Origin: Streptomyces marispadix
GTDB lineage: Bacteria; Actinomycetota; Actinomycetes; Streptomycetales; Streptomycetaceae
Assembly (NCBI RefSeq): GCF_022524345.1
Contig: NZ_JAKWJU010000002.1
Location: 6,613,321 to 6,677,320 of the forward strand
Direction of reading: 5' to 3'
Length of the DNA stretch: 64,000 bases
Part shown: piece by piece, positions 48,536 to 64,000 of the stretch
How the letters are laid out: every line of letters starts with the position of its first letter
Position numbering within the stretch: the first letter of the stretch is position 1
Position numbers and translations under genes: made by a program
Notes under the pieces: generated by a model
Seen by the model: the letters and a program-made list of their open reading frames with translations, nothing else
What the model was told of the DNA's origin: nothing
Database searches by the model: none

Positions 48536-48920
48536 CAGCCACCACCCCCATGGCGTCCCCAGCGACGGACTCCATTCCGGCCCAAGTCCGATGCAGCGAT
48601 AGCTAGTTGCCGCCGTGCCGGTCGTCGCGGAGTGTACGGCGGCTGCCGGGTGGTGGGAACGGGACCGACTGGTCGTAGTGCCGCGTGCCGCGTGGGGGGC
48701 TGTGGGGGTGTGCCGGGTTTGTGTTTGGGGGTGGGTGATGAGTTTTGTGGGGTGTATTGGTCTGTTGAGGGGTGCGTGCGTGTTGTGTGTGTTTTTGAGA
48801 GGGGATTGTTGTGGACCAGTCGTCTGGTGTGTCGTCTGCGGGCGCCGCTCCTGTCCGTGGGCCGGCCCGGTTTCCTTCGGTGCGTGGCGGGCGTGGCGGG
48901 CATATCGTGGCTGCGGGGCT
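48536..48920. other. GT-rich intergenic strand, no gene recognised
   Basis: Plus strand strongly G+T-rich (GGGTGGGTGATG-type runs), unlike the balanced coding regions. Contains the promoter for the MazF-fusion gene on the minus strand. No ORF with an SD seen. Confidence 0.4.
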
Positions 48921-49975
48921 CAACGGCTGTCATGGCGCTGCTGGTTGAGCAGACCCGGGGGGGTCGGCCGGTGACGTCCGGACCTCCTCGGTCGAGTGCC
49001 GGCTTTCGCCGGTTCCGGTGGGCGGCCTGCCGCATCTGTTCCTGTCGTCTGTGGTGTTGGTTGGGGGCTGGGATCGCAGGGGGCGGGCCGTCGTCCGTCA
49101 TAGCGTTAACGGCCGTCATGACGCTGCTGGTTGAGCGGCCCGGGGTGGTTTCGGCCGGTGACGTCCGGACGGTCTGGGGTGGGGTGGCGGCTTTCGCCGG
49201 TTCCGGTGAGCGGCCTGCCGCACCTGTTCCCGTCGTCTGCGGTGATGGTCGGGGGCTGGGATCGCAGGGGGCGGGCCGTCGTCCGTCATAGCGTCAACGG
49301 CCGTCATGACGCTGCTGGTTGAGCAGACCCGGGGGGGGTCGGCCGGTGACGTCCGGACGGTCCGGGGTGGGGTGGCGGCTTTCGCTGTTTCTGGTGGGTG
49401 GCCTGCGGCATCTGTTCTCGTCGTCCGCGGTGATGTTGGTTGGGTGCTGGGAGCAGGTGCTGGCTTCGCCGGTGCCGCGCTTCGTGGGACTGCTGCGGGG
49501 CCTCAACAGCCGTAAAAGCGCTGCTGGTTGAGCAGACCCGGGGGGTCGGCCGGTGACGGCCGGACCGTCTCGGTCGAGTACGGACGTCACCGATTCCGGT
49601 GACGGTGTGCCGCATCTGTTGTCGTTGTGTGCGGTGTTGGTCGGGTGCTGGGAGCAGGGGGTGGGCCGCTGGTGCCGTGCTTTGTGGGGCTGGGATCGCA
49701 GGGGGCGGGCCGTCGTCCGTCATAGCGTCAACGTCGGTTATGGCGCTGCTGGTTGAGCGGCTCGGGGTGGTTTCGGCCGGTGACGTCCGGACGGTCTGGG
49801 GTGGGGTGGCGGCTTTCGCCGGTTCCGGTGAGTGGTGTGTCGCATCTGTTGTTGTTGTGTGCGGTGTTGGTGGGGTGCTGGGGTCGCAGGGGTGGGCCGC
49901 CGCCGGTCATAGCGTCAACGGCCGTCGCAGCGTCAACGTCGGTCATGGTGCTGCTGGTTGAGCGGCCCCCCGGGG
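48921..49975 (+). repeat. six degenerate ~200-bp tandem repeats
   Basis: The anchor GCTGCTGGTTGAGC recurs at 48937, 49123, 49311, 49520, 49745 and 49950 (spacing 186, 188, 209, 225 and 205). Units share CGGCCGGTGACGTCCGGAC and a CTGCT/AGCAG hairpin around GGTTG; compensating changes keep its stem (AGCAG versus AGCGGC). Five of six contain ATG-(A/G)CG-CTG-CTG-GTT-GAG on the plus strand, giving MxLLVE peptides. Between units the ends differ. Function unknown. Confidence 0.75.
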
Positions 49976-49988
49976 GTTTCTGTATCTG

Positions 49989-50076
49989 TCGGGTGCTTGT
50001 CTGGGGGTTCTGTATCGGTTGGGTGCTTGTCCGCGTCTGTTGGGTGTTTGTGTGGGGGTTTTAGTTGGGTGTTTGT
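49989..50076. repeat. TTGGGTGTTTGT minisatellite
   Basis: Four imperfect copies of a TTGGGTG(C/T)TTGT core, about 22-29 bp apart, immediately downstream of arsC (minus). In the minus frame they read KHPTDTE-like peptides. Confidence 0.65.
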
Positions 50077-50441
50077 GGTGTGTCGTGTTGGAGTGCGGTT
50101 TTCACTGTTTGTGGTGTGCGGGCTATGACGGTGGTTCCGTCGTGGGCGGTGATGATGGGGCGTTGGATGAGGGTGGGGTGGGCGGCGAGTGTTTCGATCC
50201 AGCGTGTGCGGTTGTCTGGGGTGCGTGGCCAGGAGGCGAGGTCGAGGTCTGTGGCGGCGGGTTCGTGGGTGCGGGTGATGTCCCAGGGTTCCAGTTCCAG
50301 TCGTGTGAGGACGTCTTCCAGTTCGGTGGTGGTGGGGGGGTGTTCGAGATAGCGCCGTACGGTGTAGTGGGCGCCTTCCGCGTCCAGCAGTGACAGTGCG
50401 GAACGGCATTTGGAACAGTGGGGGTTGATCCAGATCTCCAT
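50061..50441 (-). CDS. ArsC/Spx-like thioredoxin-fold protein
   Basis: 126 aa. ArsC-family (arsenate reductase-like) fold with N-terminal WINPHCSKCRSAL (the CxxC-type motif HCSKC) and a C-terminal PTLIQRPIITAHDGTTVI loop. No other arsenic genes are nearby, so activity on arsenate is unproven. ATG 50441 has GGAG 8 bases upstream. Its 3' end carries the minisatellite. Confidence 0.8.
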   Translation of the reverse strand: MEIWINPHCSKCRSALSLLDAEGAHYTVRRYLEHPPTTTELEDVLTRLELEPWDITRTHEPAATDLDLASWPRTPDNRTRWIETLAAHPTLIQRPIITAHDGTTVIARTPQTVKTALQHDTPQTPN

Positions 50442-50579
50442 GTTCTTCTCCGGTCCCTTCCTCGGCTGGTGCGCCCATCATCCCTTTTTGCTCATCCCTT
50501 TTTGCTCATTCCTGTTGTGGCTGCGCGGGCCGCTTCAGGCCGGGGGCTGCGTCCCGCCTGGGGGTCTAGCCTGGGCCCT

Positions 50580-51011
50580 GTGAGCGGTACTTGGGATCCG
50601 GCGGGAGGCGGGGTGGTGCGTCTTCCCTCGGGGCGTCTGTTGCGTGGACGGGCGCTGCGCCGTCCGTTGCCGCCGGGGCCTGTCCCGGCGTTTTCGGTGT
50701 TCTTGCTGGGCAAGGAGCCGTCTCATGTGCCGTGGGATTTCTGCTGGTTGCGCTGGCCCGATTTCCGGCTGCCCGTGAGCCGTCCTCAGGCGTTGGCGGT
50801 GTTGAGTGAGGCGTGGTCGCGGGCCGGGGCGGAGCGGGTGGAGGTCGCGTGCGGTGGGGGCCGGGGTCGTACCGGTACCGCGCTGGCGTGTCTGGCTGTC
50901 CTCGACGGTGTCCCGGCGGCCGAGGCCGTGGCCTTTGTGCGGCGCCATTACGATCCCCGTGCGGTGGAGACGCCCTGGCAGCGCCGCTACGTTCTGCGTT
51001 TCACGGAGTGA
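50580..51011 (+). CDS. protein tyrosine phosphatase-like protein
   Basis: 143 aa. Cx5R motif ACGGGRGRTGTALACL with Cys91 and Arg97; the conserved His before Cys is Ala. C-terminal HYDPRAVETPWQRRYVLRF is typical of an actinobacterial PTP family. The start GTG 50580 has no SD, but TAGCCT lies 7 bases upstream, fitting a leaderless promoter -10. Divergent from arsC. Its stop opens an 18-bp tandem repeat. Confidence 0.75.
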   Translation: MSGTWDPAGGGVVRLPSGRLLRGRALRRPLPPGPVPAFSVFLLGKEPSHVPWDFCWLRWPDFRLPVSRPQALAVLSEAWSRAGAERVEVACGGGRGRTGTALACLAVLDGVPAAEAVAFVRRHYDPRAVETPWQRRYVLRFTE

Positions 51012-51121
51012 GCGTTCTGCGTTTCCTCGCGTGAGCCCGCCTCTTCGCGTGAGCCCGCCTCTTCGCGTGAGCCCGCCTCTTCGCGTGAGCGCGTTTCCTC
51101 GTGTGAGCGCGCTTCGTTGTG
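51012..51121 (+). repeat. 18-bp tandem repeats after the PTP gene
   Basis: About six copies of TGAGCCCGCCTCTTCGCG and variants, starting directly after the PTP stop codon. Three central copies are identical. Possibly 3' UTR structure. Confidence 0.75.
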
Positions 51122-51146
51122 TGCGCGTCGTGCGGGGAGGGGCTTG

Positions 51147-51934
51147 TCAGGTGTTGGTGGTCTGCAGCGGTTCGGGGTCGTGGCCGAGGATGGTTCGTCC
51201 GCCGTCGACGGGCAGGGTGACGCCGGTGATGTAGGCGGCCTCGGTGGAGAGCAGGTGCGTCACGGCTGCGGCGACTTCTTCGGGGAGGCCGGTCCTGCCG
51301 AGTGGGTGCAGTGCCCGCATCCCGGCTTCTACGGCCTGCGCTGTGTGGGGTTCCTGGGCGGCGAGGAGTGATGTGTAGCGCTCGGTCGCGATCGATCCGG
51401 GTGCTACGGCGTTGACCCTGATGCCGCGGGGTCCGTATTCGACGGCGAGTGCCCGTGTCAGTCCTTCGACGGCCGCCTTCGCGGTGGCGTACGGGGCGCA
51501 TCCCGGTACGGGCCGACGGGCTTGGTGCGAGGTGATGTTGACGATCGCCCCGGGCGAGTCGGCCTTCAGGAACCGGCGTAGGGCGGTGGCGCATCCCGTG
51601 ACGGCGGGACCATGACGGCCTCGATCAGTTCGATGACCGCCGGGGTGGGGGAGATGCCGGGTGACGCGTCGCGGAAGACGGCGGCGTTGTTGACCCAGCC
51701 GTCCAGCACGCCGGCTGATTCGGCGAGGTCCGCCGCGTGCTCCGCCACGGCCTCTTCGCGGGCGTCGCCGGTGACGGCCGAGGCGCGAGCGGCGTGCGCA
51801 GGGTGCTCCAGCCACTCCACCGCCTCCGGGTCGGCCTCGATCACCACCACGAAGTGGCCTTCGGCGAGCAGCCGTTCGGCCACGGCCCGTCCGATGCCGC
51901 GGCCTCCTCCTGTCACCACGTGGCTGCTGCGCAC
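51147..51934 (-). pseudogene. short-chain dehydrogenase, single frameshift
   Basis: SDR from GTG 51934 with SD GGAGAC; frame 1 carries VVTGGGRGIGRAVAERL and WVNNAAVFRD, then breaks near 51600-51625, and frame 2 continues with GAIVNITSHQARRPV, YATAKAAVEG and a C-terminal VDGGR. One base is missing (or two extra) between them. The active-site Tyr-x3-Lys and Ser are in place, so a sequencing error would restore a normal enzyme. Confidence 0.8.
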
Positions 51935-52052
51935 GGCGTCTCCGTTCTTCCAGGCCGATGGGTCACCGGCAGCCTCACGCCCCCCTCCCGCCCTGTCAAC
52001 AGCATTCGTCGAAGCACTTCGACACTCCGGGTCGGTTGCCGGTCGCGGGTTG

Positions 52053-52098
52053 CCGGTGGTCCGGTGGTCCGGTGGTCCGGTGGTCCGGTGGTCGGTGG
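52053..52098. repeat. CCGGTGGT minisatellite
   Basis: Five perfect copies of CCGGTGGT (52053-52092) plus a partial copy, in the gap between the SDR and LacI genes. Confidence 0.8.
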
Positions 52099-52125
52099 TT
52101 CTGTGTCCGGCTTCCGCGTGGCTTT

Positions 52126-53128
52126 TCAGGTGGAGTGCCGGGGGAGGAGTTCCAGTTTGAGGGTGGTCTCCCGTGTGGCCGTGGGGCCGTGGGTGATGCG
52201 CTGGATCAGCAGGTCGGCTGCGGTGTGGCCGGATTCTTCCAGGGGTTGCCGGACGGTGGTGAGTTCCAGTGCACGGGCCAGTTCGCTGTCGTCGAATCCG
52301 GCCAGTGCGAGGTCGCCGGGGACGGCCAGTCCCAGTGAACCGGCCGCGCGCAGGGCCCCGGCGGCGAGTGTGTCGTCTGCGGCGAACAGTGCCCGCGGCC
52401 GGTCCGGGCTGGCCAGCAGTTCTTTCGCTGCTTTGGTGGCCTGTTCCAGTCCGTGGGGGGTGTGGCGCACGCGCTCTGCTTCAAGTCGGTGGCCCGCGCT
52501 GGCCAGTGCGGTACGGAATCCGGCCAGGCGGCGCTGTCCCGGCGACTGGTACGCCTGCGACATCTGTTCCTCGCCGAGGAAGCCGAAGCTGTGGTAGCCG
52601 CGTTCCAGCAGATGTTCGGCTACCAGCCGTCCGCCGTCGGCGTCGTCGGTGTGCACGGAGTCGAAGCCGTCCCGCCGCGCGTCGACCAGTACCGCGGGCA
52701 GCCGGGAGTCGGTGAGGCGGCGGGCGGCATGGTCCTCCAGCGGCAGGCTCATCACGATGAGTCCGTCGAGCCAAGCCGGTCAGCGGCAGAGTCTCCAGCA
52801 GGGGTGAGGCGGAATGTGCCGCTGAGGCGTGGTCGAAGACGACGACTTCCAGCGGCCCGTCGCCCACCGCTTTCAGTACACCGCTCAGCCGCCGTGCCAC
52901 CGAGGGGTAGGAGGTGTAGGGGGCGAGCACGCCGATCCGCCCGACTCCCTTGCGGGCCTTGGCGACGGCCTCCGTCTTGGGTGTGTAGCCGAGTGCGTCC
53001 GCGGCCTTCAGCACGCGCTGCCGTGTGCGCTCGCTGACCCGGGCTGGGGTGTTGAGCGCGAGTGAGACGGTGGAGATGCTCACTCCGGCTTGGGAGGCGA
53101 CGTCGTAGATGGTGATCCGGCGCGGCAA
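52126..53128 (-). pseudogene. LacI-family regulator, one frameshift
   Basis: N-terminal HTH TIYDVASQAGVSISTVSLALN and a periplasmic-binding-type ligand domain. The first frame ends near 52770; after removal of one base (or addition of two) the second frame begins with LDGLIVMSLPLEDHAAR and continues to the C-terminus (AGFDDSELARALELTTVRQP). Start TTG 53128. It probably controlled the neighbouring arabinan-degrading gene; the palindrome at 56379-56390 is a plausible operator. Confidence 0.82.
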
Positions 53129-53527
53129 CTGGCTTCAGTTCTCCTCGGCCTGGCCGCTGCTCGGCCCCCGGTAGGTGATGCCCGCATCGTACCGGGGTGC
53201 CCGGCGCGCGAAGGACGTGTTCCTGGCGGTCTGTTCGGCGGGGGAGGGCGTGTGCTCTGCGGCCTGTCCGGCCCCGGGGAGGGGCGGGGGCTGCTGCGCG
53301 TCGAACGCTTCCCGGCCGGGTGTCGTGAGGGGTCGCTGTCCCGCGTCGGCCGGTCTGGGGACAGGGCTTTCGCGCCGGGTTTCCCCTGGCCGCGGCGCTT
53401 CGGCGTCCCGGCGTAGCCGGCGGTTTCCCGCTCGTGGGCCGTTCGCTCGTGGGTCGTGGGTCGTTCGGTGGTGCCGGTGTGGGCGGGGGACGGCGGGCGG
53501 GTGCCGGGGGGCTGGGTGTGGTGGGGG
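53129..53527. other. intergenic, no gene recognised
   Basis: 399 bp of GC-rich sequence, no SD-preceded ORF or known motif. It should carry the lacI promoter (minus). Confidence 0.35.
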
Positions 53528-54199
53528 TCAGGGCAGGTGGTGGCCTTCGGCGTGTGCTTCGGCGGTGTTGAGGAACCATTCGCGTGCTGCGGCGGCGACC
53601 TGTTCCAGGGCGCCGGGTTCTTCGAAGAGGTGTGTTGCTCCGGGGATGACCTGGAGCTGGTGGTCCGCGGGCAGGAGCTGGGCGGCTTCCTGGTTCAGTT
53701 CCAGTACCTGGGGGTCGCGTCCGCCGACGAGGAGCAGTACGGGGACTTCTACCTGTTTGAGGGCGTCGCCGGCGAGGTCGGGGCGGCCTCCGCGGGAGAC
53801 GACGGAGACGACCGGTCCGGCCTGGGCTGCGGCGACGAGGGCGGCTGCTGCGCCGGTGCTGGCTCCGAAGAGGTGCACGGGCACGCCGTGGGTCACGGGG
53901 TATTTGCTCAGCCACTCGATGGCGGTGGCCGTCCGTTCGCTGAGCAGGGCGATGTCGAAGCGGTGCTGCCCGGTCGCCGCGTCGGTCTTCTCCTCGTCCT
54001 CGCTGAGGAGGTCGATCAGCAGGGTGCCCCATCCGTGGCGTTGTAGTTCGGCGGCGACGGCGCGGTTGCGCGGGCTGTGCCGGGAGCTGCCGCTTCCGTG
54101 GACGAACAGCACCATCCCGCGCGGGGAGGGCGGCATGTCGAGGTCCCCGGGGAGGTCGACGTTGCCGGGCACCGCCACCGAGATCTGCTCCGAGATCAT
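53528..54199 (-). CDS. alpha/beta hydrolase (dienelactone hydrolase-like)
   Basis: 223 aa. Nucleophile motif FGASTGAAAA (Ser), acid VGGRDPQ (Asp), base ATHLFEEP (His). N-terminal FVHGSGSSRHSPRN resembles the oxyanion loop of the YqiA/dienelactone-like group. GGGGAGAA is the SD of ATG 54199. Substrate unknown; it follows the arabinan gene on the same strand. Confidence 0.8.
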   Translation of the reverse strand: MISEQISVAVPGNVDLPGDLDMPPSPRGMVLFVHGSGSSRHSPRNRAVAAELQRHGWGTLLIDLLSEDEEKTDAATGQHRFDIALLSERTATAIEWLSKYPVTHGVPVHLFGASTGAAAALVAAAQAGPVVSVVSRGGRPDLAGDALKQVEVPVLLLVGGRDPQVLELNQEAAQLLPADHQLQVIPGATHLFEEPGALEQVAAAAREWFLNTAEAHAEGHHLP

Positions 54200-54509
54200 C
54201 AGCGTTCTCCCCTTTCCGGCTTGTGGTTGCTGCCTTCCGGGGTAGCCGCCGCGCGGCCGGGTCATGCCCGGCGTGATGCGTCGCGCAGCGCAGGACCTGG
54301 TGCACGGCTGGGCAGAAGCGGGCTCGGGGGTCTGCGGCACCCGGGCCCGCTCTGCCGCCGGGTCATGCCTCGCGTGGTGCCGGCCCGGCGCGCGGCCCGC
54401 CTGGAGCCGCCCGGTACCCGTGCTCCGTCCTGCCCGTCTCCTGCTCGCCCGCTGCCCGGGTTCTGCTCGCCTGCTGCCCGCTGTCCGGGTTCTGTTTGCT
54501 GTGGTGCTG
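54200..54509. other. 310-bp gap with short repeats
   Basis: Two similar GGGTCATGCC-type copies near 54260 and 54358, and CTGCCCG/CGGGTTCTG repeats near 54460-54490. No ORF supported. Perhaps 3' UTR of the arabinanase gene. Confidence 0.35.
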
Positions 54510-56323
54510 TCAGTGCCGGTAGAGGCGGTAGTAGTCGAATTTCGCCGTGGCTCCGTCGCCGCCGAGGGATACGAGTCCGTAGCGCAGCCGGTGTTTTCCG
54601 GGGATGGTCCATGTGCCGCCGGCGGTCCACTGTGTTCCGTCGCGGCTGGTGAGGGCCTGCACGTGGTGTTCCCCGTGAGAGGTGGTGTGCCGCAGCCGCA
54701 GCCATGTGGTCCGTGCGGGAGGGCCGACCGAGGCCGAGCCGTAGGCGATGTCTCCGGCATACGGCTGCTCCTTGCCGTATTCGGTCTGCCGGGTGTTCCA
54801 GATGGCGGTGTGCGCGAGGCGCAGGTACCGGTCGTCGTAGGCGTAGGCGACCAGTCCGGCCTGCTGGTAGTTGCGTACGGTCTCCACGCCGAGGTCGATG
54901 CTGAGTTTCGTCTCGACGGTGAAGTCGCCCCGCGGCGCCTGACGCAGCATGACGGACGCGGTGTTGGTCTTCTTGTGCAGCTCCGCGTCCTGGGTCCGCC
55001 ACACGTACTGCCCGTCCCTCACGCTTCCCGCCGGGTGACGTACCCACTGCCATCCGGGGCGGGGCCGTTCACCGTCGAACTCGTCGCTGCGGGCGGGGTC
55101 GAGGGATCCGGGATCGCCGGGCGGTAGCTGTCCCCGCCGGCAGGGACGGCCGGCCGCTTCTGCGCTTTCGTGCGGGGAGAGGTCACCGGTGCGGGCTGCC
55201 GCCCGGCCGAGGCGCCCTTCCCGCCTCGCACCACCGGCCATCCGTTCTTCCAGTCGAGCCGGTCGATGAGCATGGGGCGCCGGTTGATGCCGTAGGGCTT
55301 GTCGAGGTACGGGTTCGAGCGGTCGATGGCGTGGTAGAGCATCCAGTCCTGCCCGGCGAGGTCGGTGACGACCGCGTTGTGGCCGGTTCCCACCCACCGG
55401 TTGCCGTTGGGGGTCAGCGTGATGGAGCCTCCGGTGCGCGACGCGGTCAGCGGTACGCCGTCGCGGTCGGTGAAGGGGCCGCGGACGGAGCGGGAGCGGC
55501 CTGCGAACACCGAGTAACCCGTGGTCGGCCCGGCGCAGCAGTCGCCGGAGGAGGCGAAGAGGTACCACCAGCCGCCGCGGCGGATCACATACGCGCCTTC
55601 GAAGCGGTTGTCGGTGGCGACCAGGGTGGGGCGGCCCGCCCGCCGGGTGCCGTCGGGGGAGAGCGCGGTGACTTCGATGCCGCCGTTGTAGGAGCCGTAG
55701 TAGAGGTAGCGGCGGCCGTCGGTGTCGGTGACGTGGGCGGGGTCGAAGGTCCATTTGAAGCCGTTGTCGCCGCGGCGGGGCGGCACGACCGGTTCGCCGT
55801 GGGTCTTCCACGGTCCGGCGGGGCTGGAGGCGGTGGCGACGCCGATGGCGCTGTCGTCCTTCTCGTCGGTGGCGTCGGTCTGCGTGACCACGAAGTACAG
55901 CCAGTAGCGGCCGTCGTGGTAGGTGATGTCGGGGGCCCAGTAGGCGGCGTCTTCCGCGGCCCAGCCGGGCGCGTTGTCCTTGCCGAGCGCGTCGGTGACG
56001 TACTTCCACTCCACCAGGTCGCGGGAGCGGGCGACGGGAAGCGAGTGGGGTTTCCCGCCGCTGCGCAGGGGGTCGGTGGTGCCGAACGCGTACCAGTAGC
56101 CGTCTTTTCCGCGGACGACGGCGGGGTCGGCGAAGGTGTCGGCGAAGCCGCGGGAGACGGGGTTGACGTAGGTCTTCCCCGAAGCCGGGCTCTCAGAAGC
56201 CGGGTTCCGGGAGTCGGCGGAGGCGAACGTGCCGTAGGCCCCGGGCGCGGCGGCGAGGACGGCGAGCAGGGCCGATCCTGCGACGGCGGTGCGGATCCGG
56301 GATCCGGCGGTGGTTGCGGTCAC
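54510..56323 (-). pseudogene. GH43 family arabinanase-like secreted enzyme, one frameshift
   Basis: Start GTG 56323 (SD GGAGGGG) with a Sec signal peptide. The five-bladed propeller has DTFADPAVV (Asp), TFDPAHVTDTDGRRYLYYGS (pKa modulator) and EGAYVIRRGGWWYLF (Glu), as in arabinan endo-1,5-alpha-L-arabinosidases. The frame breaks at about 55085-55140 by a missing base, and the second frame provides a C-terminal DUF1080-like domain (DEFDG, VWRTQDAEL..., LRYGLVSLGG). An operator for LacI lies upstream. Confidence 0.82.
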
Positions 56324-56378
56324 GTACGTGTCCCCTCCCTGGGCGCTGACGGCGGCAGAGCATGTGTACTGCGCCCGC

Positions 56379-56390
56379 TACAACGTTGTA
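56379..56390. promoter_or_regulatory. LacI-type operator
   Basis: TACAACGTTGTA is a perfect 12-bp palindrome with the central CG typical for LacI-family sites; it lies 56 bp upstream of the arabinanase start. Confidence 0.7.
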
Positions 56391-56621
56391 AAGGAGGGGG
56401 GTGCTGTTCGTTGCCCTGTTGACAAACGCCGCCCGGGGCGAGGTCGCCGACCGGACGCCGGAGGAGCCGGGAGTGCTGGGGGTGCTGGGGATGTCGGGGG
56501 TGCCGGAGGTTCTGGGTGCGGGGCAGCCGCCCGCCCCCGGGGCGCCCGGGGTAGGGGCGGCGGGGGCGGGCGGCTGCCGGGTGCGGCGTGCGCCGGTGGG
56601 GTGCGGGTGTGCGGTGGTGGT

Positions 56622-56699
56622 TCAGGTCTGGGGCTTGCGGCCGTGGTTGGCCGCGTTCTTACGGCGTGCCTTCTTCTTACGGCGGCGCTTCGACGACAT
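56622..56699 (-). CDS. ribosomal protein bL37 (25 aa)
   Basis: 25 aa, MSSKRRRKKKARRKNAANHG, then RKPQT. Highly basic; the C-terminal NHG(K/R)(R/K)P motif matches the tiny actinobacterial large-subunit protein bL37 described in mycobacteria. ATG 56699 has AGAGGAG 6 bases upstream. Too short for standard gene callers; the longer open frame to 56816 is not used. Confidence 0.7.
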   Translation of the reverse strand: MSSKRRRKKKARRKNAANHGRKPQT

Positions 56700-58173
56700 G
56701 TCGACTCCTCTGCAAGGGGGTTGGTTTCTTTTCCTGGTGGTTGCCCTGGCCGGCTGCTGCGGGCGTGCGCACGGGGCGCGGCCTGCCCGGGGGCAGCGGC
56801 TCGGCGCATCGCCCATGGTGGCAGTGATCGCGCGGCGGGGCTAACCGCGGTCGCCCGGCGCCGGGGTCTCTGGCGCCGGGGGTCGGCGGCCGGTGAAGGC
56901 GCCGGTGTGGGCGGTGTGTTGACGTCGCGTAGACGGCGCGATCGCGCCCGCGTCACAGGGGGCGAGGCGGCGGTAGCCGGTCGCGGCATGGGCGTCGGCC
57001 GGGAGGTCCTTTCCCGGGGCGGGGCCGTAGGGAGGGCCGGGCCCGGCGGCTGGTTGCGGGCCGGGGGTGGGGAACGGGCTGTCGTGGCGGGGGAGTTGTG
57101 CCGGGTGCGCGGGGGCCGGGGCGGTGGTGGTTCCGGCGGCAGCGCGCGGGCGGGGCTGGCGGCGGATGCCGGTGCTCACTGATCGCTCGCACCGGCCACG
57201 TGCTGTACGGGCGCGAGGCGTTTCGCCGGACCACCCGCGCATTTTGGGCGGGCCCCGGGCCCCGGGCGCTGGGGTGTGGGGTCGTGCGGCGGCGCGGGGG
57301 CGTCGGGAGGTGAGTGAACTGGCGGAGAAGGGGCGGTTGTTGCTGTCTCAGGGGTGCGCCTGTCGGGCGGGCCGAAGTTCTGGCGTGCGGCGTACGGCAC
57401 GCGTGGTGGGCGTAGAGCGTGGCCGCTGGTGATCGGGCGCTTCGCCGGGGTGGGGTGGGGTGTTGGCGGGACGGCGGTGAACCAGGCGGGCCGGTGCCCG
57501 GGGGCGCGTCGTGCGGGTGGTATGTGTGCCGGTCGGTGGGGGGCCGGTCTCGTCCCGGGAGAGCGGGAGAGTGTGGGGTGTGGGGGCTGTGGGGCCGGGC
57601 TTTGTGTTCATCGGGTCCGGGGGCGGGTGGTGGCCGAGTCCCCTTCACATCCCCGGCCCCAGGCACTCCGCTACCCGCCCGGCCGCCCCGCCCGACCGGA
57701 CACCGGCCTGCGCCAAGTGCCCGCCTGGAGCCAGGACTTCGCCGGGCGCACGAAGGGGTGCGCCCGGGTGTTGTCCGCGGGGTTGTGCCGACGACGGAGG
57801 TCTCGTTGGGGGCGGGGGTGCCTGGTCTCGTCCGGTGGGGCAACGCTGCGGTGTCTGCGGGTGTGCGGCGTGCTCGCCGCCCGTAGCGGGCCGTGTGGGA
57901 TCGGACGGCCTGCTGTTCGTCGCCGTACGGGGCGGGTGGGGGCCGGTAGTTCGGGACGGTTGCTGAGGTGCTGCCTCACCGGCCGAGACCGAGACCGAGA
58001 CCGAGACCGCGGTCGAGGTCGAGGCCGGGACCGGCCCCGGGGGCGGGGCGGGATCGGTGTCCCGGGGCGGGGTGCGGGTGTGGGCCGGTGGTGCTGGGGG
58101 GTGGTGTTCTCGCCCCGGCGCCCGGGGCGTTGGCCTGCCCGCTGCCCGCTGCCCGCTGCCTGGTGTGTGGGGG
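56700..58173. other. 1.5-kb GC-rich region without recognised genes
   Basis: The plus strand is G-rich with long antisense-type open frames (for example 56953-57843 on minus, rich in Pro/Arg/Thr) but no SD or conserved motif. Contains GAGACC hexamers at 57984-58030. I see nothing else. Confidence 0.4.
57984..58030. repeat. GAGACC hexamer repeat
   Basis: Four exact GAGACC units (57985-58008), followed by a degenerate inverted version (GGTCGAGGTCGAGG). Related in sequence to the GGTCTC/GGTCCC repeats at 12990-13130. Confidence 0.7.
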
Positions 58174-59563
58174 TCAGGGGGCGGGTTTGATGTTGTGGTT
58201 GAGGCGGAAGGTGTTGTCGGGGTCGTAGTGGGCCTTGATGCGGGCCAGGCGCTGGTAGTTGTGGCGGCCGAGGCCGGCGATGATGCGGTCTTCGCCTTCG
58301 TGGCCGATGAAGTTGAGGTAGACGGCGCCGCTTGCCCAGGGGGAGAGGTCCTCGCGCAGGCCGCGGGCCCATTGTTTGCCGCGGGTGTCGTCGGCGGGGT
58401 CGTTCCACAGTCCGAAGGGGTGGACGATCCAGGGGGCGTGCCGCCAGGGCAGGGGGTAGCGGTCGGCGTCGCGGGCGACCGCGCCGCCCTGGGGGAAGAG
58501 GACGTGCTGGGAGGGGAGGGGACGATCATGTCGTGGGCCCGTGCGCAGAACAGGTCGACGGCGTCGTCGGGGAAGGCGTCGAGGTGTTCCGCGGACCAGT
58601 AGTTGCGGTAGCCGGGCGGGTCGTCGAGCATGCTCTGCAGCTGCGCGTAGGGGAGTTGGGCGATCATCGCTCCGGCGTGGCCGAGCCGCAGCATCGGGGC
58701 CATGACCTCACGGGCCTGCGCCTCCTGCCCGGTGTAGGTGATCAGTACCGCGCACACCAGCTTCCCCACCAGCCCGCGGGGGACGAAGGGCTCCTCCCCG
58801 GCGGTCAGGTAGATCAGCCCGCCCCCGACCTGGTCCGGGGCGCCGGCGATGAACTCCCGGTAGGCGCGCGCCACTTCCCCACCCGACTCCGGCGGCCACA
58901 CCAGCAGCGCGGCCGTCAGCGCGGGCAGCGGATGCAGCCGCAGCGTCAGCACGTCAGCGAGGTGACCGGGCCGAAGTTGCCGCCGCCGCCGTGCAGCGCC
59001 CAGAACAGTTCGCTGTGGGTGTGCGGCGTGGCCCGTACGAGATCACCGCCGGCGGTGACGACCTCGGCCGCCAGCAGGTTGTCGCAGGCCAGGCCGAAGG
59101 CCCGCTCCAGCCACCCCGAACCCCCGCCGAGCACGAACCCGCCGACCCCCGTCGTCGAGACCCGCCCGCCCGTCGTGGCCAGCGCATACGGCTGGGTCGC
59201 ACGGTCGAGATCGGCCATGGTGGCACCGCCGCCCACCCGCACCGCCCGCGCGTCCGGATTCACCGTGACGCCGTTCATCAGCCGCAGATCCACCACCACC
59301 CCGTCGGTCGTGGAATTCCCCGCCACGCTGTGCCCGCCGCCGCGCACCGCGATCTGCAGCCCCTCGGCACGCCCGTAGGCCACGGCCCGGGCCACCTCGG
59401 CCTCGTTACGGGGCAGAGCTATCAGCGCGGGCGAGCGGTCGATCATGGCGTTGAAGACATGCCGCCGCTCCTCATACGAGGGATCACCGGGAGTCAGCAG
59501 AACGCCGGTGAAACCCCTCCGCAGATCGTTGAGTGCGCTCTCATGCACCATCCGGGACGACAT
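58174..59563 (-). pseudogene. FAD-binding (BBE-type) oxidoreductase, two frameshifts
   Basis: Berberine-bridge-like FAD oxidase (PF01565 plus C-terminal BBE domain). N-terminal frame from ATG 59563 (SD GGAAGGGG) includes VRGGGHSVAGNSTTDGVVVD (His FAD site), LGGGSGWLERAFGLACDNL and HGGGGNFGPVTS. It breaks near 58950 at an 8-base duplication of GCTGACGT/GCTGACGC and again near 58510 in a G-run; the last frame ends NYQRLARIKAHYDPDNTFRLNH, the typical BBE C-terminus, at 58174. Restoring 8 and 1 bases gives a full enzyme. Confidence 0.85.
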
Positions 59564-60206
59564 AGTGTCCCCTTCCGCGCAGCTTTTACCTACTTTCGAC
59601 CGTAACGCCCGGAAGAAACGGAGCCGGAGGCGACGGCCGGGACACCGGAGGGTCTGGGAAGGGCTGGAAGGCTGGAGGGGACGCAGAGGTAACGGGCACA
59701 GGGAGAAGCAGCGGGAGCGGGAACGGGGGTGGCGGCGTCGGCCGGGAGGGTGCGCTCCGCGCCGTCGGGCCCGGCCCCCCGGGGGGTGGGGAACGCGCAG
59801 ACAGGAGCGCCCAGTTCGACACCCGGCCGAACCTCCCGGCCGAACCTCTCTGTGTCGCGCTGTCTCCATGTCCCGCCCACAGACGGGAAGTTGAGATGAC
59901 GGCCGGGGGAAGGCGGTGCCAGCTTCGCTACGCCTGCGGCCCAACCCTGCGCGGGGGAGGGCCCGGTTCACGCTTTGGTGCCTCCTTTGGTGCCCCCTGG
60001 GGCGGCGGCGGCGACGGCGACGGCGCTGCCGTTGAAATGCCCGGGGCGAAACGCTGGCCGACGACCGGCGCGTGCGGACGACCGCCGCCCGCGGAGAGCC
60101 GGCACTCCCGCGGCCCGTGTCTCGGCGAGCGGGCGGGGGGTGAACCGGGTTCCGGCGGGAACCCGGATCGGGCCGAGGACCGCCACGAAGTGGGGACGAA
60201 CGCGCG
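59564..60206. other. 643-bp gap, no gene recognised
   Basis: Contains a GGAAGGGG SD at the edge of the oxidase and nothing else I can support. A short tandem TTTGGTGCC pair lies near 59975. Confidence 0.35.
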
Positions 60207-60647
60207 ATGGCACGGCTACTCGTCGAAGACGACGACCTGATCGTCCGGCTGCCCTGGTGGGAGAAGGCCGCAGCGCGGCACGGCGACGTGCGGGTACCGC
60301 TCGCCGCGGTACGGCGCGTGAGGACCGAGCGTGACTGGTGGCGTGCTCTGCGCGGAGTCGCACGCCGCGGCGTGTGGATCTCGGGGGCGCTGTACGCCGG
60401 CACCCGCCGAGACCACGAGGAGGACGACTTCGTCGCCTTCCGGCCCGGCCGTCCCGTGGTGTGCGTCGAGGTGCGGCCCGGTACGCCGTGGAGGCTGCTC
60501 TCCGTCTCCGTGGCGGACCCCGAAGCCACAGCCCGGTGGCTCCGCAGGCGGGCCCCGGACCTCGACCCCCGCGGAGCCGGCAAGAGCGCACAGGCCGGGG
60601 TGTGGGACTGGGTCACCGACCGCCTCACCCTGTGGCCGAGTCCCTAG
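60207..60647 (+). CDS. conserved actinobacterial protein, PH-like domain
   Basis: 146 aa. MARLLVEDDDLIVRLPWWEKAAARHGDVRVPLAAVRRV resembles the beta-sheet start of bacterial PH domains (DUF family common in Streptomyces); DWWRALRGVARRGVWISGAL and VRPGTPWRLLSVSV also conserved by recall. No membrane segments, function unknown. GTGGGGA is upstream at about 11 bases. Confidence 0.6.
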   Translation: MARLLVEDDDLIVRLPWWEKAAARHGDVRVPLAAVRRVRTERDWWRALRGVARRGVWISGALYAGTRRDHEEDDFVAFRPGRPVVCVEVRPGTPWRLLSVSVADPEATARWLRRRAPDLDPRGAGKSAQAGVWDWVTDRLTLWPSP

Positions 60648-61038
60648 AACCCCGCCAGGCACCGACCGCCGAACGACCTGCCGCCGAACGGTGCGGCCCC
60701 GGCGGCCGGCCGACGCGGCCGGGCCCGAACAGCCGCTCAGGAAGCGGATGACGCCGTCGGCGAACCCCAACAGGCATGGAAACACAGCCATCTGAGCCCA
60801 CAGTGACAAACCGGTGCGGCACCGGCCCGCGGAGAAGCCCGGCCCGCATCGCGGCGGGAGCCGTCCGGCCCGGACGGTACTCCGCGTACTCCGCACAGCA
60901 CCGTCCGCGCCGGTGCCTGTACGTGCCGGCTAACTGGGCTGTCAGGTCCGGCCGTTCGGCCCCTTCCGGAAACAAGACGGCAGGCGCCCGCGACCGGCAC
61001 CTGCCGCCTCTTCCCCTTGGTGTCCGTCACCGCTCCTG

Positions 61039-61060
61039 ACATGACGACGTCTCGTCATGT
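61039..61060. promoter_or_regulatory. 9-bp-arm inverted repeat (operator candidate)
   Basis: ACATGACGA (61039-61047), spacer CGTC, TCGTCATGT (61052-61060). It lies 41 bp upstream of a strong promoter, so it may be an operator for the replication-type operon. Confidence 0.6.
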
Positions 61061-61100
61061 TGGTGAAAGCGCCTGTTCCGGCGCATAGTTGGGACACGTC

Positions 61101-61129
61101 TTGATAGGTTTGCTCTCACTGCTTACACA
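61101..61129 (+). promoter_or_regulatory. promoter of the Tap-like operon
   Basis: TTGATA (61101-61106), 17-base spacer, TACACA (61124-61129). Start of transcription expected near 61136, so the 5' UTR is about 30 bases and includes AGGAGGT (61154-61160), a perfect SD for GTG 61169. Confidence 0.75.
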
Positions 61130-61168
61130 TCAAGGTGTGAGGTCGAAACCGTGAGGAGGTGACCCCGC

Positions 61169-63437
61169 GTGCCCACACACGGCGTCGCCACAGGGCCGTA
61201 CGGGACGGAGGCCGCTCGTAAGGCCCTGTTCCAACTGCTCGATGCCGGAAAGCCCGTGGTCATCACGCGGGAGTCCGGCGACACGGTCGTACGGGCCGTC
61301 CTGACACCGCTGAACGCCCTCACCGAACAGCAGCACGCCGTGCTGGAGTCCTGGCCCGCGCACGGACTCACCCAGGCCCGCCAGCAGTTGGGCAGCCTCG
61401 TCACCGCAGCCGCCGCCGGCGCTCCCCAGCGGCTGCGGAAGCGCACCCGCGACGTCGCCGTACTCCTCCCCGCCGACGTCCCCGCCGAGGCGACGGTCCC
61501 GGCGCCCACGCCCCCGTCGCCCGCCGAAACCGCAGCGACCAGGCCCGTCGACGAGGCGCCCGCCCCGCCCGCCGAGGCCGCACCGCCCCAGACCCCGCGG
61601 CCTGCTCGCCGGGCACGGACACTGACCGGACCCGCCGCGGTGCTGGAGAGCATCACCAGCACCGCCCGCGCCGCACTCTCCTACGGACTCGCCGCCCTCG
61701 ACGACGCGACCGGCGGCGGACTCCTCCCGGGCCGCCTCGCCCTCATCGCCGCCGCACCCCGGCGCCGGCGGCAGCCTCCTCGCCGCGAGCGCGGCCCGCG
61801 ACACCGCCGTCGTCCACGGCCGCCCCGTCCTCTACGCCGCCTCCGGCCCCTCCGCCGCGGACGTCGTCGCCCGCATCACCGCCGCACACGCCGGCGCCGA
61901 CTACCAACGACTGCGATCGGGCCTGCTGGACCCCCCGCCACACCTCGCCGCACGACTCGCCGAACCCCGCCAAGCCCCCCTGTACGTCGACGACGGAGAC
62001 GACCTCGACACCGGCGCCATCGAGTCCACCCTCGCCGACGTCGACGGCCTGGCCCTCCTCGTCGTCGACCGCCTCCAAACCGCCGCGGACCCGGCCGTAC
62101 CGCTGTCCGGCGACACCCTCCCCGCCGCGACCCGCGACCTGATGCGCCTCGCCCGCACCCACCACCTGCCGGTACTCGCCGTCGTCGACACCGACGACCC
62201 CACCCTCCTCGACACCCTCCGCGCCGACGTCGTACTCCGCCTGGAGCGCACCGGCGACACGGCCCGACTCGCCGTAGCCGACGACGACATCGGCATGGGC
62301 GACGTGACGCTCTACCCCGACTTCGTACACGCCCGCTTCCTCGACACCCCCGACCCGCACACACCCCCACAACCCCCTCCACCGCCGCCTGCACCCCGCA
62401 CAAAGCAGCCACCACCCCACCCCCCGGCAGAGCACGCCAACCGAGCCACCACAGCTCCCAAGTCCCGCCCCGCCGCGGCGCGTTCAGGATCACTCGACGC
62501 CGACGTCATCGAACAGATCCACGCCACCGTCGCCGACGCCCTGCACGCCGCGGGCGGCGACGCCGACGCCGCGGCCAGAACACTCATCAAGCGGGCCGTG
62601 CCGGACGTCATGGCCTGGTTCGACCACACCCGCAAAGGCTCCCGCTACGAACACAGCTCGTTCCCGCCGGTACTGGACCTGCTGAAGAAGACCGGCCAGA
62701 AATCCGGCGCCGACGCCATCTGGGAAGGCCGCCAGAACTGGAAGAACACCGCCGTACGCGCCGACGCCACCCCACGCGAGACCATCGCACTCGATGCGAA
62801 CGCCGCCTACCTCGCCGCATTCAAGACACACCTGCCCATCGGCCAACTCACCTGGAACGACAGCCAAGTCCACGACCCCAAACGCGCCGGCATCCACCAC
62901 ATCACCCCACCCGCCTGGCCCCACGAGGACCTGCCCTCACCACTCGGAGACCGCCGCAAAACCGGCGACGTCTGGATCACCGAACCCACCCTGCGCCTCC
63001 TCCAGCGCTGCACCCAGGACGGCCTGTGCGACCCGCCCCTCATCCACGAATCATGGACCTCCGGCGCGACGGAGAACGTCCTGGAGAAGCTGCGCCGCAC
63101 CCTCGCCCAAGTACGCCGGGAAGCCATCGAAAACGGAGACGACGTCACGGTGGAATACCTCAAATCCGCGTACTCCAAGTTCATCTCCACCATGGGAGAG
63201 TCCACCTACAACCGCGAGATCCGCCGCCCCGACTGGATGCACATCCTCCGCAGCCAGGCATACGCGAACCTCTGGCTCAAGGCCCGCAAAGCACACCAGG
63301 CCGGACTCGTGGTCGTCGAAGTCACCGGCACCGACGAGCTGCACGTCCACGGCGACTGGCAGCAGGTATTCACAGAAGGACGAGACCTGTCCGACATGAA
63401 ACCCAAGCGCACCTACACGCTGGGAGCCGACCGGTGA
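61169..63437 (+). pseudogene. DnaB-like RecA fold plus Tap/DNA-polymerase-B-like fusion, one frameshift
   Basis: From GTG 61169. N-terminal 90 residues resemble a Phd-like domain (KPVVITRESGDTVVRAVL). Then a RecA/DnaB-like domain with an altered Walker A (APGAGGSLL after correction; Lys replaced by Gly) and Walker B LALLVVDRLQTA. A Pro-rich linker (CDPHTPPQ...-like) leads to a polymerase-B-like domain: motif A ALDANAAYLAAF, motif B region EYLKSAYSKFISTMGE and motif C VTGTDELHVHGD. The break is an extra C in a CCCC run near 61757. The N-terminal and C-terminal parts otherwise read as one gene of about 755 aa. The polymerase-like part resembles the Streptomyces telomere-associated protein Tap. 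Confidence 0.65.
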
Positions 63438-64000
63438 CCGCACGCGAGGAATGGGGCGAATTCTCCAAATACCACGCCCAAGGCATCCCCGGCGCCGAAG
63501 CCCTCGCCGCAGAACTGGACCGGATCATCCGCGACACCGGCATCCGCAGCCCCATCGACACCCGCCGCGGCCTCCACGCCCGCCTCCACTACCTCGACAG
63601 CCCCGCCTACCGCACCGCCCTCAAAAACGCCGGCGTACGCCCCGCCACACTCCGCCGCTGGCAGACCGGCAAAGCAACACCCTCCCGGAAAAGCCGCCAA
63701 CGCATCGAAAAGGCCTACCGCACCCTGCGCAGCCACAACATGCTCCGCTCCGGCGCACTGACAAAACGCCTCAACCGAGCAGGCGCCGGAACCCGCGTAG
63801 AGATCTACCCCGTCAACCAGACCGCGGTACGCCCCCCACACCGCCGCGACGTACAACAGCGCTCCCTCCAGATCCGGGACTGGCACGACATCGTCTCCGC
63901 CTGGGACGCCCGCGACACCGCCAGACTCGACGCCGCCTGGGACGACATCATCACCGACCTGGGCTCGGAGTACGACGCATACGCCTACGTCTCCGGCGTC
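63434..64000 (+). CDS. terminal-protein-like (Tpg-like) HTH protein, 3' end outside window
   Basis: 189 residues visible. GTG 63434 overlaps the stop of the upstream gene (GTGA), so translation is coupled. Contains an HTH-like LKNAGVRPATLRRWQTGKATPS and basic regions, then a C-terminal WDDIITDLGSEYDAYAYVSG. In Streptomyces tap and tpg form an operon and Tpg is covalently attached to linear telomere ends. The layout and size (about 190-200 aa) agree, but sequence identity to the classical Tpg is low by eye, so the assignment is tentative. An alternative is a plasmid transcriptional regulator. Confidence 0.5.
   Translation, partial: MTAREEWGEFSKYHAQGIPGAEALAAELDRIIRDTGIRSPIDTRRGLHARLHYLDSPAYRTALKNAGVRPATLRRWQTGKATPSRKSRQRIEKAYRTLRSHNMLRSGALTKRLNRAGAGTRVEIYPVNQTAVRPPHRRDVQQRSLQIRDWHDIVSAWDARDTARLDAAWDDIITDLGSEYDAYAYVSGV

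Follow-up and report, generated by a model that had tools for sequence, protein, structure and literature searches.

A fused Phd, DnaB-like and polymerase-like protein in a predicted end-patching gene pair near a chromosome end of Streptomyces marispadix

The 64,000-nucleotide stretch of Streptomyces marispadix DNA analysed here (the window; bases 6613321-6677320 of contig NZ_JAKWJU010000002.1, hereafter C2) ends with two adjoining genes, one encoding a protein in which Phd-like, DnaB-like and polymerase-like domains are fused and the other a terminal-protein (TP)-like product. We read them, with a probability of roughly 0.82 and with their activity predicted, as a pair that patches the ends of a linear Streptomyces-type chromosome whose telomere is non-archetypal. 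The reading draws on the predicted fold of the polymerase-like domain, its co-linear motifs, the order of the two genes and their position near the contig end. The first-pass annotation of this DNA had proposed a non-canonical end module of a linear replicon, and the terminal inverted repeat, the operon order and a profile link to the archetypal telomere protein Tap, all described below, support that proposal. The features are as follows, in window coordinates; C1 (locus L008) is a short 17.8-kb contig of the same assembly, and motif counts refer to the 33 rows of alignment A3.

48685..64000, no strand: assembled part of the right terminal inverted repeat, 99.7% identical to C1; the part up to 62190 also matches the left end of C2
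61153..61159, plus strand: GAGGAGG, a likely ribosome-binding site that lies 9 nt upstream of the GTG start (from the sequence)
61169..63437, plus strand: fused Tap-like gene, made up of tandem Phd, a DnaB-like pseudo-ATPase, a linker and a protein-primed-PolB-like domain; the frame breaks at 61760 in the window and is intact in C1
61193..61477, plus strand: two tandem Phd/YefM-like units, about amino acids (aa) 9-103, from Pfam and NCBIfam matches and the secondary structure of the L028 model
61661..62339, plus strand: DnaB-like RecA-fold domain, aa 165-390, from Pfam DnaB_C and family alignments
62478..63434, plus strand: protein-primed family-B polymerase-like domain, aa 437-755, from the predicted fold and profile alignments
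62793..62795, plus strand: motif A aspartate (aa 542, in LDANAAY), equivalent of phi29 Asp249 by alignment; invariant (33/33)
63162..63182, plus strand: motif B-like KSAYSKF, aligned to phi29 NSLYGKF; Tyr in 20/33, Ala in 13/33
63327..63341, plus strand: motif C GTDEL; Asp at 63333-63335 (aa 722) equals phi29 Asp458 (33/33), and Gly takes the place of the first Asp of DTD
63434..64000, plus strand: TP-like gene, cut by the window end; 193 aa in C1
63965..63967, plus strand: Ser178 of the TP, a candidate for the residue that attaches to DNA; all 46 aligned TPs have Ser here

In the window, one extra base in a C run at 61760 breaks the frame of the fused gene, as the first-pass annotation had suspected. 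In C1 the gene is unbroken and encodes 755 aa (L008:3087-5354, minus strand), the incomplete copy found at the left C2 end likewise lacks the extra base, and four close orthologues (L028-L031) are intact single open reading frames (ORFs) of 739-791 aa with polymerase domains 79-83% identical. Because all of these are unbroken, the split frame either arose as an assembly error in a single copy or is recent. The alternative of two separate genes was rejected, since the C1 copy and the orthologues carry all domains in one ORF; with the Pfam matches, they uphold the proposed order of a Phd-like N-terminus, DnaB-like middle and PolB-like C-terminus in a single gene. The fold predicted for L028 (mean predicted local distance difference test score, pLDDT, 81.7) comprises two Phd-like units, a RecA-like domain and a C-terminal domain, with disordered linkers between them; its predicted template-modelling score (pTM) of 0.47 means that the relative placement of the domains cannot be read from the model.

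The final base of the window is the final base of C2. Window 48684-62190 recurs in inverted orientation at the left end of C2 (1-13515), and window 48685-64000 is present again, as a third copy, in C1. The fused gene thus lies in a terminal inverted repeat, of the kind that the first-pass annotation had suggested looking for, indicating a linear chromosome of about 6.7 Mb, whose topology we infer from this repeat. The window and C1 differ by 16 gap openings over 15.3 kb, which suggests a poor consensus at the window end. At the outer end of C1 (1-2519), the 3' part of the operon is repeated in direct and inverted order, together with a 0.86-kb stretch that has no other match in the assembly; this end is either a fold-back chimera or a genuine telomere rearrangement.

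The C-terminal domain of the predicted structure has the PolB palm/fingers fold. Its alignment to phi29 polymerase begins at phi29 residues 124-189 and runs to about 495, where the window-type protein ends. In the profile alignment, the sequences earlier read as motifs A (DANAAY) and C (GTDEL) fall on Asp249 and Asp458. Neither a 3'-5' exonuclease nor a thumb was found: no Pfam exonuclease model matched, and the protein stops at phi29 position 495 or so. Judged from motif spacing alone, there is room for most of TPR1 and less for TPR2. The model and alignments place the domain with the protein-primed family-B enzymes, and name the residues to test.

For the relation to archetypal Tap and its terminal protein Tpg, we used plasmid examples (L024, L026, L027) located via the Tpg helix-turn-helix (HTH) peptide printed in PMC3572947. 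By blastp, the best match of the fused protein to archetypal Tap had an E-value of 0.44. In a single profile comparison, ten archetypal-type C-termini, Rhodococcus and Brachybacterium proteins included, matched the window-type profile with Prob 99.4 and E 1.4e-21; the archetypal Tap profile was weak with three near-identical rows (Prob 45.6) and strong with ten diverse ones. The motif A and C aspartates are present in all ten archetypal-type rows. A relation to Tap and to PolB, the point that the first-pass annotation had singled out for checking, is thus found in the profile match and the fold. In three loci (L118, L119 and L120, from Brachybacterium, Rhodococcus, where it is annotated as a telomere-binding protein, and a Streptomyces plasmid), the archetypal C-terminus stands behind long N-termini of other kinds.

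We consider it improbable that the C-terminal domain is an inactive polymerase fold whose only role is to hold the TP. The first motif-C aspartate is lost and motif B is degraded in one subclass, as such a fold would have it; against this, the invariance of the motif A and second motif-C aspartates extends to the archetypal-type rows, and archetypal Tap, which has this domain in common with the fused protein, is active in vitro together with its TP (PMC4513846).

The TP gene starts with GTG at 63434, overlapping the TGA of the fused gene (63435-63437) by 4 nt. The earlier description of its product as an HTH protein resembling a telomere terminal protein fits both this coupling and a profile of 46 TPs that matched archetypal Tpg with Prob 87.5 and E 3.6e-6 over 61 columns of the HTH part. 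The match is confined to that part, and the profile identified no equivalent of the Tpg attachment pair Thr114-Asp115 (Thr or Ser at 114, Asp or Glu at 115). Among the matches listed, the TP is 46-53% identical to proteins on Streptomyces and related plasmids, which sit after Tap-like genes in the loci examined. From the alignment, Ser178 is a candidate DNA-attachment site: Asp or Glu follows it in 40 of 46 TPs and the context is D-S-D in 33 (G-S-E in this protein), recalling the Asp-Ser-Glu of the phi29 TP (PMC3572947). Thr120, which is Thr in 40/46, is a rival candidate. At TP residue 59 (window 63608-63610), the window has Tyr and C1 has Gly, as do 93% of the aligned rows.

Several observations weigh against reading the two genes as an active end-patching pair: (i) The first motif-C position is Gly in 20/33 and Asn in 13/33 rows, so that a complete DTD is absent, and Ala replaces the motif-B Tyr in 13/33. 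(ii) By sequence, the window profile matched phi29 with Prob 12.8 only, hhalign in -glob mode aligned just three columns, and a sequence search of the PDB with the polymerase profile returned no polymerase and one irrelevant match (E 0.21). (iii) The archetypal-type profile compared directly with phi29 gave Prob 0.6; the link from Tap to phi29 therefore passes through the fused family. (iv) The TP had no blastp match to the archetypal 185-aa Tpg (best E 5.1). (v) The outermost 302 assembled bases, those of C1, yielded no telomere palindromes and folded no better than shuffled sequences (z -0.53, with 27 of 100 equally good), and the true telomere seems to be absent from the assembly. (vi) Among 18 other carriers of the fused gene, archetypal Tpg, the query by which co-occurrence was assessed, matched in 11 and was absent in 7. 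The 11 matches indicate that the query works, and the fused pair of these carriers may act for a different replicon.

The last point also bears on whether the pair is an end module captured from a linear plasmid, a passenger at the chromosome end while as yet unnamed host proteins do the patching. Plasmids do carry relatives (with the whole protein, 148 plasmid records at E 1e-5; with the N-terminal half, 30 at E 1e-3), and telomere exchange with plasmids has been proposed (PMC8743542). In the S. marispadix genome, however, a search aimed at archetypal Tap and Tpg returned no match, other telomere proteins, Tac/Tpc included, being possible, and the polymerase profile matched only the terminal copies. 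The genes lie within inverted repeats at the ends of a chromosome contig, orthologue frames are intact, and plasmid origin and present function are mutually compatible. We regard the passenger role as unlikely, though the least so of the alternatives considered, and retain the end-patching pair.

The DnaB-like domain is a RecA fold that, judged from its alignments, is without the residues for ATP catalysis. Pfam DnaB_C matched the fused protein at 53.7 bits (E 2.5e-14, cut-off 27), and a PDB sequence search with this part returned no homologue at an E limit of 1. Gly replaces the Walker-A lysine (61745-61775), and Walker-B LLVVDRLQ is retained (62055-62078). A working helicase, stripping Tap or opening hairpins during end patching, is very unlikely and was rejected: the Walker-A lysine occurs in 0/80 relatives, in 0/9 rows of alignment A1 and in 0/81 rows of the alignment in which the catalytic Glu position is Gly throughout (81/81), whereas the genome's own DnaB, which shares the RecA-like C-terminal domain, retains both residues. 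The fused family is thus a case of a DnaB domain retained after loss of its ATPase residues. Stand-alone DnaB-like proteins with no polymerase domain (L017 4728-5894 on pFRL3, L088, L105) also lack the Walker-A lysine, and the long relative L011 (1775-5818) has two additional N-terminal AAA_22-like stretches.

The N-terminus is predicted to carry a Phd fold, a reading that rests on profile matches together with secondary structure. In the L028 model, the units span aa 9-46 and 63-100. The full protein scored 24.6 bits with Pfam Phd (cut-off 29.8) and 19.6 with the NCBIfam model (cut-off 20.8); the N-terminal piece alone reached 23.5 with the latter, over its cut-off, and the relative L019 scored 41.3 bits in two stretches, over both cut-offs. 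Pfam at E 1 matched only DnaB_C, Phd, AAA_25 and KaiC in the full protein, and no HTH. Public annotation of some relatives as prevent-host-death family antitoxins, for which the Phd matches speak, would make this a toxin-antitoxin gene. We give that reading almost no credence and rejected it: the Phd part is only about 100 of 755 residues, tandem and fused to the DnaB-like and polymerase domains, and the adjoining gene is TP-like, no search aimed at a toxin gene having been made.

To survey the family, genome contigs were scanned with the DnaB-like domain and the best 80 of 96 confirmed loci were analysed. The polymerase domain shares an ORF with the DnaB-like domain in 74 of these; of the remaining six, four run off a contig end and two stand alone. 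Phd-like matches occur in 71/80. A TP-like ORF comes next in 72 of the 75 loci with a complete gene 3' end, overlapping the stop of the fused gene by one base in 41/72, and complete fused ORFs span 733-1947 aa. There are two C-terminal subclasses, the window type and a LIDRNGSYPSA type with a strongly diverged TP. In the latter (L019, L020 and many of L035-L102), motif A reads LIDRNGSYPSA or SFPSA, resembling the textbook PolB motif A more closely, and the partner is a different protein of 190 aa. Ten pattern matches in viral contigs included no relative, and phage records gave two records from one phage at E 0.4.

The DnaB-like domain was found at E 1e-30 in 19 of 150 genomes of the genus, S. 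marispadix counted. Outward-reading copies lie near both ends of one contig in this genome and in G025:C2, G049, G068, G089 and G129, end nearness being inferred from symmetry, with rounded sizes and, in G089, cut or interrupted copies. On contigs of at least 1 Mb, five of seven loci lie within 8 kb of the contig end and point to it; L042 and L101 lie deeper. At the extreme end of one complete Streptomyces chromosome (L034 15316-15615) there is a strong hairpin (z -5.76), with the fused gene about 4 kb away; it is possibly a telomere of the fused class.

For the pair itself, binding, clamping and priming would proceed as follows. The tandem Phd units would hold the protein on telomeric palindromes, replacing the HTH of archetypal Tap, and the DnaB-like domain would probably act on the 3' overhang as a clamp or scaffold that needs no ATP. 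The C-terminal domain, a minimal protein-primed PolB by its predicted fold, would then join the first nucleotide to a TP hydroxyl, perhaps that of Ser178, and add a short primer for cellular polymerases to extend. The missing thumb and the divergence would fit what PMC4513846 says of archetypal Tap and Tpg, which alone synthesise 13 nt, no polymerase motif being noted there. A limited literature search found no paper that counts Streptomyces Tap among the phi29-like PolBs; the novelty is lessened by a PolB-like polymerase of phage type reported from a Curtobacterium plasmid, which has relatives in actinomycetes (PMC8929003).

By a narrow balance, we favour a broader proposal: that Tap-kind proteins, archetypal ones included, are minimal phi29-type polymerases lacking exonuclease, thumb and one motif-C Asp, and that the window class is a further telomere-replication system, with a dead DnaB as ATP-independent holder of single-stranded DNA and a tandem Phd telomere reader, maintaining some of the Streptomyces chromosomes for which the end-patching proteins are reported as undiscovered. 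Linear chromosomes without archetypal tap/tpg would gain a candidate end-patching machine; PMC8743542 calls such systems likely undiscovered.

The fused pair shares with archetypal Tap/Tpg its operon order (Tap upstream of Tpg) near a replicon end, the C-terminal domain by profile, the motif A and C aspartates and a related HTH stretch in the TP; it differs in having tandem Phd in place of the Tap HTH, in the added DnaB-like domain and in the lack of similarity at the blastp level for either protein. With phi29 and other protein-primed PolBs it shares the predicted palm/fingers fold, the motif order A-B-C and a TP partner, but it lacks exonuclease, thumb and first motif-C Asp and sits at a cellular chromosome end, not on a phage genome. 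Also close are short Tap-like pairs of the HTH type encoded by linear plasmids of Streptomyces (L015, L016, L021-L023; 450-544 aa), the polymerase domain being 53-63% and the TP 46-53% identical among the matches listed, but they have an HTH N-terminus and no DnaB-like domain. The fused class is a widespread variant of the Tap/Tpg kind and, as far as a limited literature search shows, is undescribed. One precedent is pAL1.101 of the Arthrobacter plasmid pAL1, a large telomere-associated protein, reportedly described by Kolkenbrock in 2010, that is said to have a helicase-like part and partial PolB motifs and to act on its TP; it is said to be 1707 aa long, with superfamily 2 (SF2) helicase and topoisomerase-primase-like parts and neither DnaB nor Phd. 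Another is pRL2, whose candidate telomere proteins are likened by description, one to Tap and a helicase and the other to Tpg (PMC8743542). Tac/Tpc of SCP1 are comparable by description as a non-archetypal end-patching pair that primes in vitro (PMC4513846).

Elsewhere in the window, rbpA lies at 1530-1841 on the minus strand, 62 kb from the contig end, in keeping with the distance of about 60 kb noted earlier; a second rbpA-like locus is at C2:964303-964613. Imperfect repeats of about 200-800 bp cluster at window 48910-49977, immediately within the inner boundary of the terminal repeat. Window 57645-60628 holds one gene, which by its look we take to be an FAD-linked oxidase; it is split in the window and open over 546 aa in C1.
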